DNA of 33,515 nt from a bacterium (GTDB lineage Archaea > Thermoplasmatota > Thermoplasmata > Lutacidiplasmatales > UBA184): positions 5,732 through 39,246 of the forward strand of contig DAIDCO010000016.1 of NCBI GenBank assembly GCA_027309555.1. The letters run 5' to 3'. Numbering within the stretch: position 1 is the stretch's first letter; each line of letters starts with the position of its first letter. Positions 9,890 through 22,108 of this stretch are shown here, piece after piece. The notes under the pieces were generated by a model. That model searched no databases. It was given only the letters and a program-made list of their open reading frames with translations, and was not told where the DNA came from. Made by a program: the position numbers and the translations under genes.

Positions 9890-11086
9890 CTAAAGGTTCG
9901 CCCTCTTGCTTGCCTCCTCGATAATCCGCTTCCACCGGAATCCGTCTCCGACCGGAATCCCCGCCGCCTCGCCGGGCGTCATGCCGAGCGCTTGGTGCTC
10001 TCGCACGAGGTTATAGTGGACTCGTAGGCCCTCGGCGAGGATCACCGTTCCGAGTTCCCCGTCGAACGCGCGCATGACCTTGAACCGTTCCTTCTCGGTT
10101 CCATGGAACCGCTCGATGCGGTTGTTCGACTCTTTGGCCCGGATGCTCGGGACCCGCTTGTGCGGGTTGAACTGACCGCCGTGGACGAACTTCGGATCAT
10201 CGAAGGCCGTCGCCTTCCGCCCGAGTTCCTTATTGACGGCCTCGGGATATGCCTTCATTCCGTCGGTGAGAACGTCCACCGGGCGGTCCGGCGTGACGGC
10301 CTTGGCTTTGTGGATCGGAGTGCGGGTGTTGGCGAGGCTTCGGTTATCGCTGACGTGGGTTGCGAGCAGGAACCGGGTCTCATGGTCGATGACGTTCCAG
10401 AGATACTCGTTCTTTCCGTTCACATTCACTACCGTCTCGTCGATGTGCCAGCGGTCGGAGGTCCGTGCTCCCTGTGCGTCCATCCACTCGGCCGCGAGTT
10501 TGGAGTAGTGGACGACCCACCGGAAGACCGTCATGTGCGATACGCGTAGCTGTTCGACCTGTTCGAGATGTTCCCGGACCTTGCGGATGCTCATGCCCCG
10601 GAAGTAGAGATCGAGGGCGCGGGCGATGTTGGTCGGGTCGGCGCGGCGCTTGGCGAACCCCTCTCGACCGATGAACCGCCGACCGCACGACTTACAGACG
10701 TACGTTTGAACGTCCCCGCTCTTGTTGTGTCTGATGCCCCGGAGGGTAACCGTCTCCGACCGGCACGCGTCACACCGGACCTTCGTCTCAGCGAGAGCGG
10801 GATCGGATTCCTCGAAACCGATCTTGTATCGGACCGCGACGATGTGGATACAGGTCATCGAAGTCGCCCGGAAGAAGTCGCAAGCGCAGGACCACCGACC
10901 CGACTTCTCGGCGACCGTGTATGCCGACGCCGGATGGCTCTGGGACCGAACCGAGTAGGTCTTCGGTGCGACCTCCCGAATCTGGTCCCCGCGAGCCACA
11001 ATGGCGAGCGCGGGGGTCCGCTGGTCCGTCCATGCGTGGGCCTTCCACCAGTCAGCCTCGCCCATCTGCTCCACCGCTTCCGTCAT
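9890..11086 (-). CDS. DDE transposase (IS6/IS240-like) with SWIM and zinc-ribbon domains
   Basis: 398 residues from the ATG at 11086, which has a purine-rich GGAGGGTGAGGAG ribosome-binding site directly upstream. Domains in order: a SWIM zinc finger (Cys67-x-Cys69, Cys79-x-His81), a four-cysteine zinc ribbon (105, 108, 131, 134), a helix-turn-helix region (about 150-190), and an RNase H-fold DDE domain with candidate catalytic residues Asp216 (HIDETVV), Asp275 (LTDGMKAY) and Glu325 (NNRIERFHG). It appears intact. I found no clear terminal inverted repeats on either side, so the ends of an insertion sequence are undefined. The gene lies divergent from an AbrB-like gene across a palindrome-rich region. 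Confidence 0.85.
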   Translation of the reverse strand: MTEAVEQMGEADWWKAHAWTDQRTPALAIVARGDQIREVAPKTYSVRSQSHPASAYTVAEKSGRWSCACDFFRATSMTCIHIVAVRYKIGFEESDPALAETKVRCDACRSETVTLRGIRHNKSGDVQTYVCKSCGRRFIGREGFAKRRADPTNIARALDLYFRGMSIRKVREHLEQVEQLRVSHMTVFRWVVHYSKLAAEWMDAQGARTSDRWHIDETVVNVNGKNEYLWNVIDHETRFLLATHVSDNRSLANTRTPIHKAKAVTPDRPVDVLTDGMKAYPEAVNKELGRKATAFDDPKFVHGGQFNPHKRVPSIRAKESNNRIERFHGTEKERFKVMRAFDGELGTVILAEGLRVHYNLVREHQALGMTPGEAAGIPVGDGFRWKRIIEEASKRANL

Positions 11087-11122
11087 TCTCCTCACCCTCC
11101 GCGCGTAGGCTATGCGTATCCT

Positions 11123-11143
11123 ATACTCTCGTGAGTATTTAAG
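11123..11143 (-). promoter_or_regulatory. Inverted repeat overlapping a TATA-like box
   Basis: ATACTC (11123-11128) and GAGTAT (11133-11138) form a perfect 6-bp inverted repeat around TCGT. It overlaps the minus-strand TATA-like sequence CTTAAATA (11136-11143), about 50 nt before the transposase ATG. A protein bound here would block the transposase promoter. Confidence 0.45.
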
Positions 11144-11158
11144 CGAATCGGCTATTGG

Positions 11159-11179
11159 TATGCCTACATGTAGGGCATA
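11159..11179. promoter_or_regulatory. Near-perfect 21-bp palindrome, operator candidate
   Basis: The core CTACATGTAG (10 bp, perfect) is flanked by TATGC on the left and GGCATA on the right, with a single extra G breaking the symmetry. It ends 19 nt before the ATG of the AbrB-like gene and lies in the divergent region with the transposase. Autoregulation by the AbrB-like protein is a reasonable inference. Confidence 0.45.
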
Positions 11180-11198
11180 GTTATGTAGTCGCCCGCCC

Positions 11199-11423
11199 AT
11201 GAGAGTGATGGGAGGGTCGGTGTCAGCGTTCGTATCCTCGATACAGAAGGTACGCGATGGGTCCGAATCCTTGAGGTCCACGATCCCGGACGGGGTCGCC
11301 AAGATCCTCAATGCGGTCCCCGACGGCAAACTTGTTTGGTCGGTCGATCTCAAGGCCGGCCGCGTGACAGTCTCGGCGGAGCCCCCGTCATCATCGGGAA
11401 AGAAGTCATCAAGGTCGGACTGA
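11199..11423 (+). CDS. Small AbrB/SpoVT-like DNA-binding protein
   Basis: 74 residues. The segment KVRDGSESLRSTIPDGVAKI, followed by a loop and LVWSVDLKAGRVTVSAE, matches the swapped-hairpin AbrB pattern (a strand, TIP, a helix, then paired strands). Such proteins dimerise on palindromic operators and often serve as transition regulators or antitoxins. A 21-bp palindrome lies just upstream. Divergent from the transposase, so it may repress it. No toxin gene follows directly. An internal ATG at 11208 is also possible. A weak hairpin (AAGGCA at 11450-11455, TGCCTT at 11465-11470) follows and may end transcription. Confidence 0.55.
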   Translation: MRVMGGSVSAFVSSIQKVRDGSESLRSTIPDGVAKILNAVPDGKLVWSVDLKAGRVTVSAEPPSSSGKKSSRSD

Positions 11424-11561
11424 CGCGACGTACCGACGGACGCGTCTAAAAGGCATTTCAAACTTGCCTTCCACCTGATTTCTTACGTCACTTATCTAAC
11501 GCTTCGTTTATCTATTCGAAAGACCTCATATCAAACGCATCGTTCAAGATGTGTTGCGGCC

Positions 11562-18614: not shown

Positions 18615-21600
18615 GTGGAGTCCTATTTCCACGCGATCGAGGCTTCGGTGGACCGGGCCTACGCGGTCGCCGACCAGGCCCGCCGCGAAGGGATCGATCC
18701 TGAGCTTACGCCCGAGATCCCCCGTGCTCAGGACATGGCGATGCGGGTCGAGAAGCTCCTCGCCCACCTCGGGATCGAGGGGATCTCGACGGAGATACGG
18801 GCGCTGTCGGCCCAGATGCCGCGCGAGGAGGTCGCGGTCGCGATCGCGCGACGAATCGCGCGCGATGCGAGCCGGTACGGCTCGGTCGCGGCCCGCGTTG
18901 AGGCTGCGCTGCGGGTCGGTCTTGCCATCCTGACGGAGGGGATCCTGGTCGCGCCGCTCGAAGGCCTCGCCGAGGTCCACGTGCAGGAGGGGCCCGACCG
19001 GAAGGGGTACATCGAGCTGTACTACGCCGGTCCGATCCGCGCCGCGGGCGGGACGGCGCAAGCGCTCAGCGTGCTCCTCGCCGACATCGTACGGCGCGAC
19101 CTCGGCCTCGAACCGTTCCGGCCCGAGCCGAAGGAGGTCGAGCGCTACAAGGAGGAGATCCCGCTCTACAAGTACCACCAGCACCTTCAGTACGTACCGA
19201 CGCCCGAGGAGATCGAGCTCGTCGTGCGTCACGTGCCCGTCGCGATCTCGGGCGAGGCGACCGAAGGCGACGCGGAGGTCAGCGCCTTCCGCAACCTCCC
19301 GCGCGTCCCAACGAACGGGATCCGTGGAGGGGCGTGCCTCGTCATCGCCGAGGGGCTCTGCCAGAAGGCGGCGAAGCTTCGGAAGATCGTGGACAAGCTC
19401 GGGCTCGACGGCTGGGAGTTCCTCGCCGAGCTGGGCCACCACACGACGGACGAGGAGGACGCGCGGACCCCGAAGTACCTCCAGGACTCGGTCGGGGGTC
19501 GCCCGGTCCTCGCCCACCCGAACCGTCCCGGGGGGTTCCGTCTCGTCTACGGCCGGGCCCGCACTACGGGCCTTGCTGCGTGCGCGATGAACCCGGCGAC
19601 GATGGTCATCCTCCAGCACTTCGTCGCGATCGGCACCCAGGTGAAGCTCGAGTACCCGGGCAAGGCCGCGGCGATGGGGGTCTGCGACACCGTGGAGGGA
19701 CCGATCGTCGAGCTCGACGACGGGACCGTGACCGCCGTCCACGACATCTCCCGTGCCGAGACCCTGCGACCGCGCGTCCGTCGGATCATCGACCTCGGCG
19801 AGATCCTCGTCTCGTTCGGCGAGTTCCTCGAGAACAACCGCGCGCTCGTCCCGGGCGCCTACTCGCTCGACTGGCACGCGGAGGAGCTGCGGGCCGCTGG
19901 GGTCGACCCGACGGCGGGGGTCGGCGTGACCTCGTACGCCGCCGCGGTCGAGCTCTCCCGCGCCCACGAGGTGCCGCTACACCCGCGGTGGCTGCTCTTC
20001 TGGCACGACCTCACGACCGCCGAGATCCGCGCGCTCGGCGAATTCGTCGAGCGCACCGGTCGCTGGACGGGAGAGGCCGTCGAGCTCCCCTCCGACCCGG
20101 CATGGCGGGAAGCGCTCGAACGCCTCGGCTTCCTATTCTTCCCGGTGGAGCCGGACCGGATCCGTGGGGAGCCCGACCCGAGCGCGGCCCTCGTCGGGGG
20201 GCTCGGGCTCGCGGCCGAGGGAAACCTCCTCGTCCGCCAGACGCCCCTCGAGCCGGTCGGCCTGGACCCGCTCCACTACGTCCGCCGCCTCGCGGGGGTC
20301 ACGGTCCGGGCTCGCGGACCGTCCCGGGTCGGTGGGCGGGTCGGCCGACCCGAGAAAGCCTACCAGCGCAGTATGCAACCGAACGTCCACGCGCTCTTTC
20401 CGGTCGGCGCGGCCGGAGGACCGACCCGGTCGATTCCCGAGGCGGCCCGCCGCACGATGCGGGAGGGAGCGGAGGTCGACCTCGGGATCCGTGCGTGTCC
20501 CTCCTGCGGTCGCACGACCGTTTGGACCCGGTGCCCGTGCGGGGCCCATACCGAGCCGACCGGTACGGTGGGTCGGCAAGCGCTCCCGATCGCGCGGCTC
20601 TGGAGCGACGCGCTCACCCGCCTCCACCTCGGCAAGGTGCCGATCGTCAAGGGAGTGAAGGGCCTCACCTCCCCCGGGAAGGTTCCCGAGCCGGTCGAGA
20701 AGGGGATCCTGCGGGCCGTGCACTCGATCTCGGTCTACCAGGACGGCACGGCCCGCTTCGACCTCACGGACCTGCCCCTCACGCACTTCCGCCCGGCGGA
20801 GATCGGCACGGACATCGAGACCCTTCGGCGGCTCGGCTACGAACGGGACTGGGCCGGCGCCGAGCTCATCGATCCCGAGCAGCTGGTCGAGCTTGCGCCG
20901 CAGGACCTCGTCGTCTCCCGCTCGTGCGGGGAATACCTCACCCGGCTCGCCCAGTTCGTGGACGACGAGCTCGTGCGCCTCTACAACCTCGACCCGTTCT
21001 ACTCGGCCGACCGGCCCGAGAGCCTGGTCGGACAGATCGTGGTCGCCCTTGCCCCGCACACGTCGGGGGGCGTCGCCGGCCGCCTCCTCGGCTTCACCGA
21101 CGCCGAGGCCTGCTTCGCGTCGCCCGTCTTCCATGCCGCGAAGCGACGCAACTGCGACGGGGACGAGGACTCGGTCACCCTCCTCCTCGACGCGCTGCTC
21201 AACTTCTCGCGCGCATACCTTCCCGATAGCCGCGGCGCGCTCATGGACAAGCCGCTCGTGCTCACGACGCGGCTCGTCGCGACCGAAGTCGACAAGGAGG
21301 CGCACAACGTCGACGTGTCGAGCCACCACCCCCTCGCCCTCTACCGGGCGGCCGCCGAGGGCCGGTCGGCGAAGGACGTCGAGCCCCTCCTCGACCTCGT
21401 CGGCCACCGGCTCGGCTCGGCTCGGGCCCTTTCGGGCTACGGGTTCACCCACGACACCTCCCGCATCGCCGGTGGGCCCGTCCGCTCGGCGTACCGGGAT
21501 GGTCGGTCGATGACCGACATGGTCGAGCGGTCGATCCGGCTCGCGACCCAGATCCGCGCGGTCGATGTCGCCGAAGCGGTCACTCTCGTGCTGAACGCGC

Positions 21601-21959
21601 ACTTCCTGCCGGACGTCATGGGGAACCTCAAGAGCTACGCGACCCAGCGCTTCCGTTGCAAGGACTGCGGGGCCTCCTACCGCCGTCCGCCGCTCACCGG
21701 ACGCTGTACCGCGATCGGGACGAGCCGGGACCGGTGCGACGCCGAGCTCCTGTCGAGCGTCTACGAGGCGTCGGTCCGCAAGTATCTCCCGCTCTCCGAG
21801 CGGCTCAGCGAGATCGAGGGGATCACGCCGTATGTGCGCCAGCGGATCCGGGTGCTCTCCGACTCGATCGCCACTCTCTTCCCGGGATCCACCGCGCAGA
21901 CGACGCTCGACCGGTTCCGCCCACGCGAACGCTCGCCGGCGGTCGCGGGAGGGGAGTGA
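18615..21959 (+). CDS. polC: DNA polymerase D large (catalytic) subunit DP2
   Basis: 1114 residues from GTG 18615. DP2 is the polymerising subunit of the two-subunit, euryarchaeal-type replicative polymerase; its partner DP1 is not in this window. Visible hallmarks: the N-terminal MESYFHAIE, RAAGGTAQALSVLLADIVRR, SVGGRPVLAHPNRPGGFRL, the GRVGRPEKAYQRSM motif, the catalytic NCDGDED (Asp848 and Asp850), a zinc motif starting CPSCG (Cys628) and a second one near the C-terminus (RFRCKDCG, Cys1015 and Cys1018, then two more Cys). Length is normal, so there is no intein, although DP2 inteins are frequent at the NCDGD region in other archaea. Confidence 0.95.
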   Translation: MESYFHAIEASVDRAYAVADQARREGIDPELTPEIPRAQDMAMRVEKLLAHLGIEGISTEIRALSAQMPREEVAVAIARRIARDASRYGSVAARVEAALRVGLAILTEGILVAPLEGLAEVHVQEGPDRKGYIELYYAGPIRAAGGTAQALSVLLADIVRRDLGLEPFRPEPKEVERYKEEIPLYKYHQHLQYVPTPEEIELVVRHVPVAISGEATEGDAEVSAFRNLPRVPTNGIRGGACLVIAEGLCQKAAKLRKIVDKLGLDGWEFLAELGHHTTDEEDARTPKYLQDSVGGRPVLAHPNRPGGFRLVYGRARTTGLAACAMNPATMVILQHFVAIGTQVKLEYPGKAAAMGVCDTVEGPIVELDDGTVTAVHDISRAETLRPRVRRIIDLGEILVSFGEFLENNRALVPGAYSLDWHAEELRAAGVDPTAGVGVTSYAAAVELSRAHEVPLHPRWLLFWHDLTTAEIRALGEFVERTGRWTGEAVELPSDPAWREALERLGFLFFPVEPDRIRGEPDPSAALVGGLGLAAEGNLLVRQTPLEPVGLDPLHYVRRLAGVTVRARGPSRVGGRVGRPEKAYQRSMQPNVHALFPVGAAGGPTRSIPEAARRTMREGAEVDLGIRACPSCGRTTVWTRCPCGAHTEPTGTVGRQALPIARLWSDALTRLHLGKVPIVKGVKGLTSPGKVPEPVEKGILRAVHSISVYQDGTARFDLTDLPLTHFRPAEIGTDIETLRRLGYERDWAGAELIDPEQLVELAPQDLVVSRSCGEYLTRLAQFVDDELVRLYNLDPFYSADRPESLVGQIVVALAPHTSGGVAGRLLGFTDAEACFASPVFHAAKRRNCDGDEDSVTLLLDALLNFSRAYLPDSRGALMDKPLVLTTRLVATEVDKEAHNVDVSSHHPLALYRAAAEGRSAKDVEPLLDLVGHRLGSARALSGYGFTHDTSRIAGGPVRSAYRDGRSMTDMVERSIRLATQIRAVDVAEAVTLVLNAHFLPDVMGNLKSYATQRFRCKDCGASYRRPPLTGRCTAIGTSRDRCDAELLSSVYEASVRKYLPLSERLSEIEGITPYVRQRIRVLSDSIATLFPGSTAQTTLDRFRPRERSPAVAGGE

Positions 21960-22007
21960 CGGAGCGCGGAACGGCCAAATAGCCCGGGACCCGTGACGCC
22001 CCGGGTC

Positions 22008-22108
22008 GGGCTTGTGGGGTAGTCTGGACTATCCTGTTGGCCTTCGAAGCCAACGACCTGGGTTCGAAACCGCGGGGTTCCCCCGCGACGAAACTCCCAG
22101 CAAGCCCG
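22008..22108 (+). tRNA. tRNA-Arg (anticodon UCG) with T-loop intron
   Basis: The acceptor stem GGGCTTG (22008-22014) pairs perfectly with CAAGCCC (22101-22107), with discriminator G at 22108. The anticodon stem TTGGC/GCCAA encloses loop CTTCGAA, anticodon TCG at 22044-22046, reading CGA arginine codons. The T-stem CTGGG (22058-22062) pairs with CCCAG (22096-22100), and the T-loop begins TTCGA. Between them lies an insert of about 26 nt (about 22069-22094) that is not part of any tRNA consensus and contains a perfect CGCGGGG-TTC-CCCCGCG hairpin. After its removal the T-loop has 7 nt and the tRNA 75 nt. A weak AAATAG box at 21977-21982 lies upstream. CCA is not encoded. Confidence 0.85.
22069..22094 (+). 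other. Predicted 26-nt tRNA intron (position 59/60)
   Basis: Removing 26 nt here restores a standard 7-nt T-loop; boundaries are uncertain by 1-2 nt. The insert forms a 7-bp GC stem with a 3-nt loop. Non-canonical archaeal tRNA introns are removed by the splicing endonuclease at a bulge-helix-bulge; I could not define the bulges with certainty by eye. Confidence 0.65.

Follow-up and report, generated by a model that had tools for sequence, protein, structure and literature searches.

Intron sites between tRNA positions 59 and 60 belong to the non-canonical group, which is rich in Crenarchaeota and Nanoarchaeota (PMC4090602), and 673 non-canonical introns have been reported in 217 archaeal genomes (PMC8450103). 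About 48% of tRNA genes are interrupted in Crenarchaeota; in Euryarchaeota under 10% (~8%) of tRNAs are, and their introns are said to lie at the canonical site alone (PMC4090602). Euryarchaeota were part of the training set for the intron model of PMC8450103, so single cases may be catalogued. Full-text searches of the open-access literature on Thermoplasmata and the wider Thermoplasmatota, covering Methanomassiliicoccales and Marine Group II, yielded no paper recognisably describing T-loop introns for this phylum, although single-species reports are possible. The splicing endonucleases of the homodimeric alpha'2 type are reviewed as narrow in specificity (PMC6379350), and PMC8707768 reports a homodimeric Ferroplasma endonuclease that cuts minimal bulge-helix-bulge (BHB) substrates.

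The interrupted tRNA-Arg(UCG) gene described here lies in a window of 33 515 nt, the whole stretch of DNA that was analysed, from a soil archaeon with a Lutacidiplasmatales-type Thermoplasmata genome. Its syntenic upstream neighbour, which served as our phylogenetic anchor, encodes the large subunit of DNA polymerase D (DP2; 18615–21959, plus strand) with the Pfam DP2 N, central and catalytic domains, in keeping with the PolD-bearing archaeon proposed in the preliminary description. The relatives of DP2 are Thermoplasmata metagenome-assembled genomes (MAGs). Ca. Lutacidiplasma silvani AcS3-62 and UBA184 are among them and belong to the order Lutacidiplasmatales of PMC9287336, a study that never uses the word 'intron' in its main text. 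The tRNA gene starts 48 nt past the end of the DP2 gene. A candidate BRE/TATA-like promoter, GGAACGGCCAAATAG (21968–21982, plus strand), is situated 26–40 nt upstream of it, with a conserved CCAAATAG box at 26–33 nt, and most orthologs have a similar A/T-rich box at the same spacing. Elsewhere in the window, an ORF on the minus strand (9890–11461) resembles an IS-type transposase and has a zinc-finger-like motif.

Direct reading, the predicted fold and orthologs agree on a gene of 101 nt at 22008–22108 on the plus strand, to which all features below also belong: GGGCTTG TG GGGT AGTCTGGACT ATCC TG TTGGC CTTCGAA GCCAA CGAC CTGGG TTCGAA / ACCGCGGGGTTCCCCCGCGACGAAAC / T CCCAG CAAGCCC G. Exon 1 (22008–22068, 61 nt) runs through A59 of the T-loop and contains the anticodon TCG (22044–22046); its extent follows from the BHB and from the intronless orthologs (L056 and L058). 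The fold and the orthologs likewise delimit the 26-nt intron (22069–22094), after which exon 2 (22095–22108, 14 nt) supplies T60, the 3' strands of the T-stem and acceptor stem, and the discriminator base G (22108). Every arm is paired: the acceptor stem in seven of seven positions (22008–22014 with 22101–22107), the D-stem in four pairs of which one is G.U (22017–22020 with 22031–22034), the anticodon stem in five of five plus one extra G-C, and the T-stem in five of five (22058–22062 with 22096–22100). Removal of the 26 nt gives a predicted 75-nt tRNA with the canonical T-loop TTCGAAT, which sets the site at 59/60; the uninterrupted L056 and L058 genes end identically. The preliminary description, which had reported a tRNA-Arg(UCG) split in the T-loop near 59/60 by about 26 nt with a GC hairpin, fully paired stems and a 75-nt product, is thus exact in its coordinates and borne out in these particulars, the product length by predicted splicing.

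The same description had suggested looking for a BHB, and the ViennaRNA minimum-energy fold of the 101-nt gene includes one of strict form. Beyond the outer helix, formed by the T-stem (CTGGG, 22058–22062, with CCCAG, 22096–22100), comes a 4-bp central helix between the exon and the end of the intron, in which T54-T55-C56-G57 (TTCG, 22063–22066) pairs with CGAA (22089–22092). Two 3-nt bulges follow on opposite strands, AA^A (22067–22069) with the predicted 5' splice site after 22068, and AC^T (22093–22095) with the predicted 3' splice site after 22094, and beyond them the inner helix, a GC hairpin of 7 bp (CGCGGGG-TTC-CCCCGCG, 22071–22087). The one deviation is a C.A mismatch beside the 5' bulge (22070/22088), a position that is paired in most orthologs. 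When the intron was shuffled 200 000 times, the 4-bp central helix arose by chance in 3.9%, at least seven of the eight inner pairs in 0.16%, and the two jointly in 1 in 100 000 (1e-5). Canonical 37/38 introns of the hBHBh' type likewise have a strict BHB, its central helix 4 bp long and its two bulges 3 nt each, with the cut falling behind the second nucleotide of the bulge. In contrast to these, the exon strand of the helix is here T-loop 54–57 rather than the anticodon loop, and it is the T-loop that would be blocked before splicing.

We located the tRNA gene near DP2 in 61 of 80 loci; the remainder have contigs that end early, come from distant relatives, or gave no parsed gene. An intron of 23–38 nt occupies the identical site in 59 of the 61. 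Among these 59, AA^ starts the 5' bulge in every case and AC^T is found in 55, while the central helix takes the form TTCG/CGGA in 33, TTCG/CGAA in 21 and a near form in five; counting G.U as a pair, it is complete in 55. The 24 gap-free orthologs with a 26-nt intron pair in 98.6% of cells; their T-stem is 100% paired, with compensatory changes in two of its five pairs, and two-sided changes occur at all seven inner-helix pairs. Two-sided changes affect 12 pairs in this set, against a shuffle mean of 4.8 (none of 500 shuffles reaches 12), with the caveat that the orthologs are related and such counts are not independent events.

Uninterrupted tRNA-Arg(UCG) genes occur in the other two genomes (L056 and L058), and their loop, TTCGAAT, equals the predicted product. 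On the DP2 tree the intron is present throughout; L058 is nested among intron-bearing genomes, grouping with L057/L060 at full support, and L056 is a long basal branch. Loss in both is the simpler reading, because each of the two genomes retains T-loop introns elsewhere in its tRNA set and because further families and classes likewise have T-loop introns in tRNA-Arg(UCG) (L204, L220, L221, L233 and L234). Read by eye, the L204 gene, from another family of the same order, appears to have an anticodon-loop intron together with a 13-nt T-loop intron. Anatomy and comparison together make it certain, at the level of sequence, that this is a real and conserved 59/60 intron with a strict BHB.

The T-loop site is used widely within the same genome. 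Searches with the Rfam tRNA model and a purpose-built model found 45 tRNA genes, one per isoacceptor (three CAT genes counted), and no Gly(CCC) tRNA. At least 14 of the 45 carry a 59/60 intron of 26–38 nt: Asn, Asp, His, Lys(UUU), Gly(UCC), Ala(GGC), Gln(CUG), Glu(CUC), Arg(UCG), Arg(UCU), Ser(CGA), Ser(GCU), Ser(GGA) and Leu(UAG). ARAGORN misses or truncates most of the thirteen others (loci L085–L088, L091–L096, L098, L122 and L126). Insertions were also read, in part by eye, in the D-loop of five genes, namely Arg(GCG), Pro(UGG), one CAT tRNA, Lys(UUU) and Leu(UAG) (~25–35 nt; loci L089, L090, L096, L123 and L126), and in the anticodon arm of four (Tyr, Trp, Leu(UAA) and Met). Altogether 21 of the 45 genes (~47%) are interrupted somewhere. 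As a check for copying, the 14 introns were aligned pairwise, and the best score of 0.61 was in slight excess of the shuffled maximum of 0.58.

Across isotypes, position 57 of the T-loop covaries with its predicted partner in the intron. Among 70 introns, in counts uncorrected for relatedness, G57 stands opposite C in 39 of 39 and A57 opposite C in none of 31, A57 being instead opposite G in 24, U in six and A in one. The 20 introns of other classes show the same trend, with C opposite G57 in 11 of 14 and U opposite A57 in six of six. The TTCA tRNAs of Lutacidiplasmatales differ in mostly setting A57 against G, where the other classes sampled have U. The A57.G pair, common in this order, leaves the helix short of full pairing, and some sister introns with such an imperfect central helix might be poor substrates for a strict alpha'2 enzyme.

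The genome has one splicing endonuclease gene, with two PF01974 domains fused in one frame; among genomes with a match, this arrangement prevails both within the class and in the other classes sampled. Its C-terminal domain retains the FKYG, HARYLV and VRK motifs with the catalytic Tyr, His and Lys, and the enzyme is of the alpha'2 type. A gene for the RtcB ligase is also present. Taking the loop location from the CSL-grafted A. fulgidus enzyme (3p1y), a sequence alignment showed that the crenarchaeal or ARMAN specificity loop (CSL/ASL; ~10 or more extra residues between YG and LSLxEAxYL) is absent from the endonuclease of this genome, YGSRIGDRLELSLIEAAYL. Its YG-to-AAYL distance is 19 residues, the same as in native A. 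fulgidus, and most class orthologs in which the loop motif matched have 19–20.

The anatomy, covariation, conservation, intronless orthologs and the endonuclease and ligase genes can all be read from sequence, and from them we infer that the transcript is cleaved and ligated, in what sequence the steps run, and why this site is preferred. The transcript would be a 101-nt pre-tRNA in which T54-T55-C56-G57 pairs with the CGAA at the 3' end of the intron instead of forming the T-loop. This central helix would stack on the T-stem to give a canonical BHB with 3-nt bulges, which the homodimeric alpha'2 endonuclease would cut at AA^A and AC^T. RtcB would then ligate A59 to U60, with release of the 26-nt intron, and only after splicing would the TTCGAAT loop and its contacts with the D-loop form. 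That the pre-tRNA BHB is processed by these two enzymes is, we consider, very probable. Since TTCR is present in almost every T-loop, an intron ending in YGRA plus the bulge would suit nearly any tRNA; one type of intron end fitting most tRNAs may explain why the same site recurs in at least 14 genes.

Excision by an activity other than alpha'2, such as a second enzyme of broad specificity, would accord with the narrow specificity ascribed to alpha'2 enzymes (PMC6379350) and with the A.G pair in the central helix of some T-loop introns of this genome. We nevertheless regard it as very improbable: a single endonuclease gene was found, most sampled genomes of the class with a match are alike, and narrow specificity is sufficient for tRNA-Arg(UCG) because its BHB is canonical.

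Slightly less probable still is that the insert is never removed, the tRNA working with an extended T-arm or the gene being a decaying pseudogene. Standard annotation does not recover a complete tRNA here, for ARAGORN detects the gene but sets a wrong end at 22084, and the unspliced gene scores 21.7 bits with the Rfam tRNA model, under its 29-bit cut-off, as compared with 56.8 bits for an uninterrupted ortholog. Against non-removal, this is the sole Arg(UCG) gene: neither the Rfam tRNA model nor BLAST of the spliced tRNA found a second, uninterrupted copy in the genome, the result named at the outset as the one that could overturn the assignment. Moreover, the exons hardly differ from one member of the order to another, whereas the introns differ in both length and sequence and show compensatory changes; the intronless orthologs match the predicted product, the TATA-like box is conserved, and the exact 59/60 register recurs in 14 tRNA genes. 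A shorter true gene as called by ARAGORN (22007–22084), with unrelated DNA downstream, is hardly credible despite the agreement of ARAGORN and Rfam on a 3' end at 22080–22084, which we rejected, as its T-stem and acceptor pairing is poor, its score is sub-cut-off, and the real acceptor and T-stem strands at 22096–22107 pair in 12 of 12 positions and are conserved in orthologs.

Introns at 59/60 are fixed in nearly all sampled members of the order. A model trained on them (R1) retrieved T-loop introns in other families of the class, in Arg(UCU), Arg(CCG), Glu(UUC), Lys(UUU) and Asp; two of these families (f8 and f22) carry methyl-coenzyme M reductase and are therefore methanogens, some of them with single-contig (complete) genomes. 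The tRNA-Arg(UCU) of a cultured methanogen in this class has an intron of this type. The 20 long matches retrieved from other classes of the phylum all proved to be 59/60 introns. Family f19 and some others gave just short uninterrupted matches among the matches listed. Because R1 was trained on T-loop introns, these results demonstrate presence, not frequency. The earlier view that such introns are known mainly from Thermoproteota and are unusual here agrees with the open literature (PMC4090602). It fails inside the lineage itself, where they occur in 14 genes of one genome, through the order and in other classes of the phylum.

In its predicted mechanism, the tRNA-Arg(UCG) intron is functionally ordinary and of a kind already known. 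It shares position, BHB junctions and a short hairpin intron with the 59/60 introns of Crenarchaeota and Nanoarchaeota (PMC4090602), but differs in belonging to Thermoplasmatota, in going together with an endonuclease of the alpha'2 and not the (alpha-beta)2 type, and in the dominance of one site (14 of 45 genes). Thermoproteales (PMC8450103) and soil Asgard archaea (PMC11291895) likewise have many interrupted tRNA genes and many non-canonical sites; in Thermoproteales, however, many intron sites are accompanied by intron copying between tRNAs (PMC4090602), whereas here one site dominates. What is new, and surprising to a tRNA specialist, is the lineage-wide distribution of 59/60 introns with an alpha'2 enzyme, the ~47% interrupted genes being a Crenarchaeota-like level in a lineage whose enzyme is supposedly narrow. 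We postulate, with the balance evenly poised, a phylum-wide, hitherto undescribed series of 59/60 introns that use TTCR as half of the central helix and are served by an alpha'2 enzyme lacking CSL/ASL, partly across an A57.G pair. This opens the proposed coupling of endonuclease type and intron diversity to a direct test on a minimal T-arm substrate. Programs that search for tRNAs and lack archaeal intron models overlook or shorten such genes, so Thermoplasmatota MAGs may hold more tRNAs than are counted. If true, the series would break the rule that euryarchaea of the alpha'2 type have introns only at 37/38, and T54-R57 would be a generic landing site for tRNA introns.
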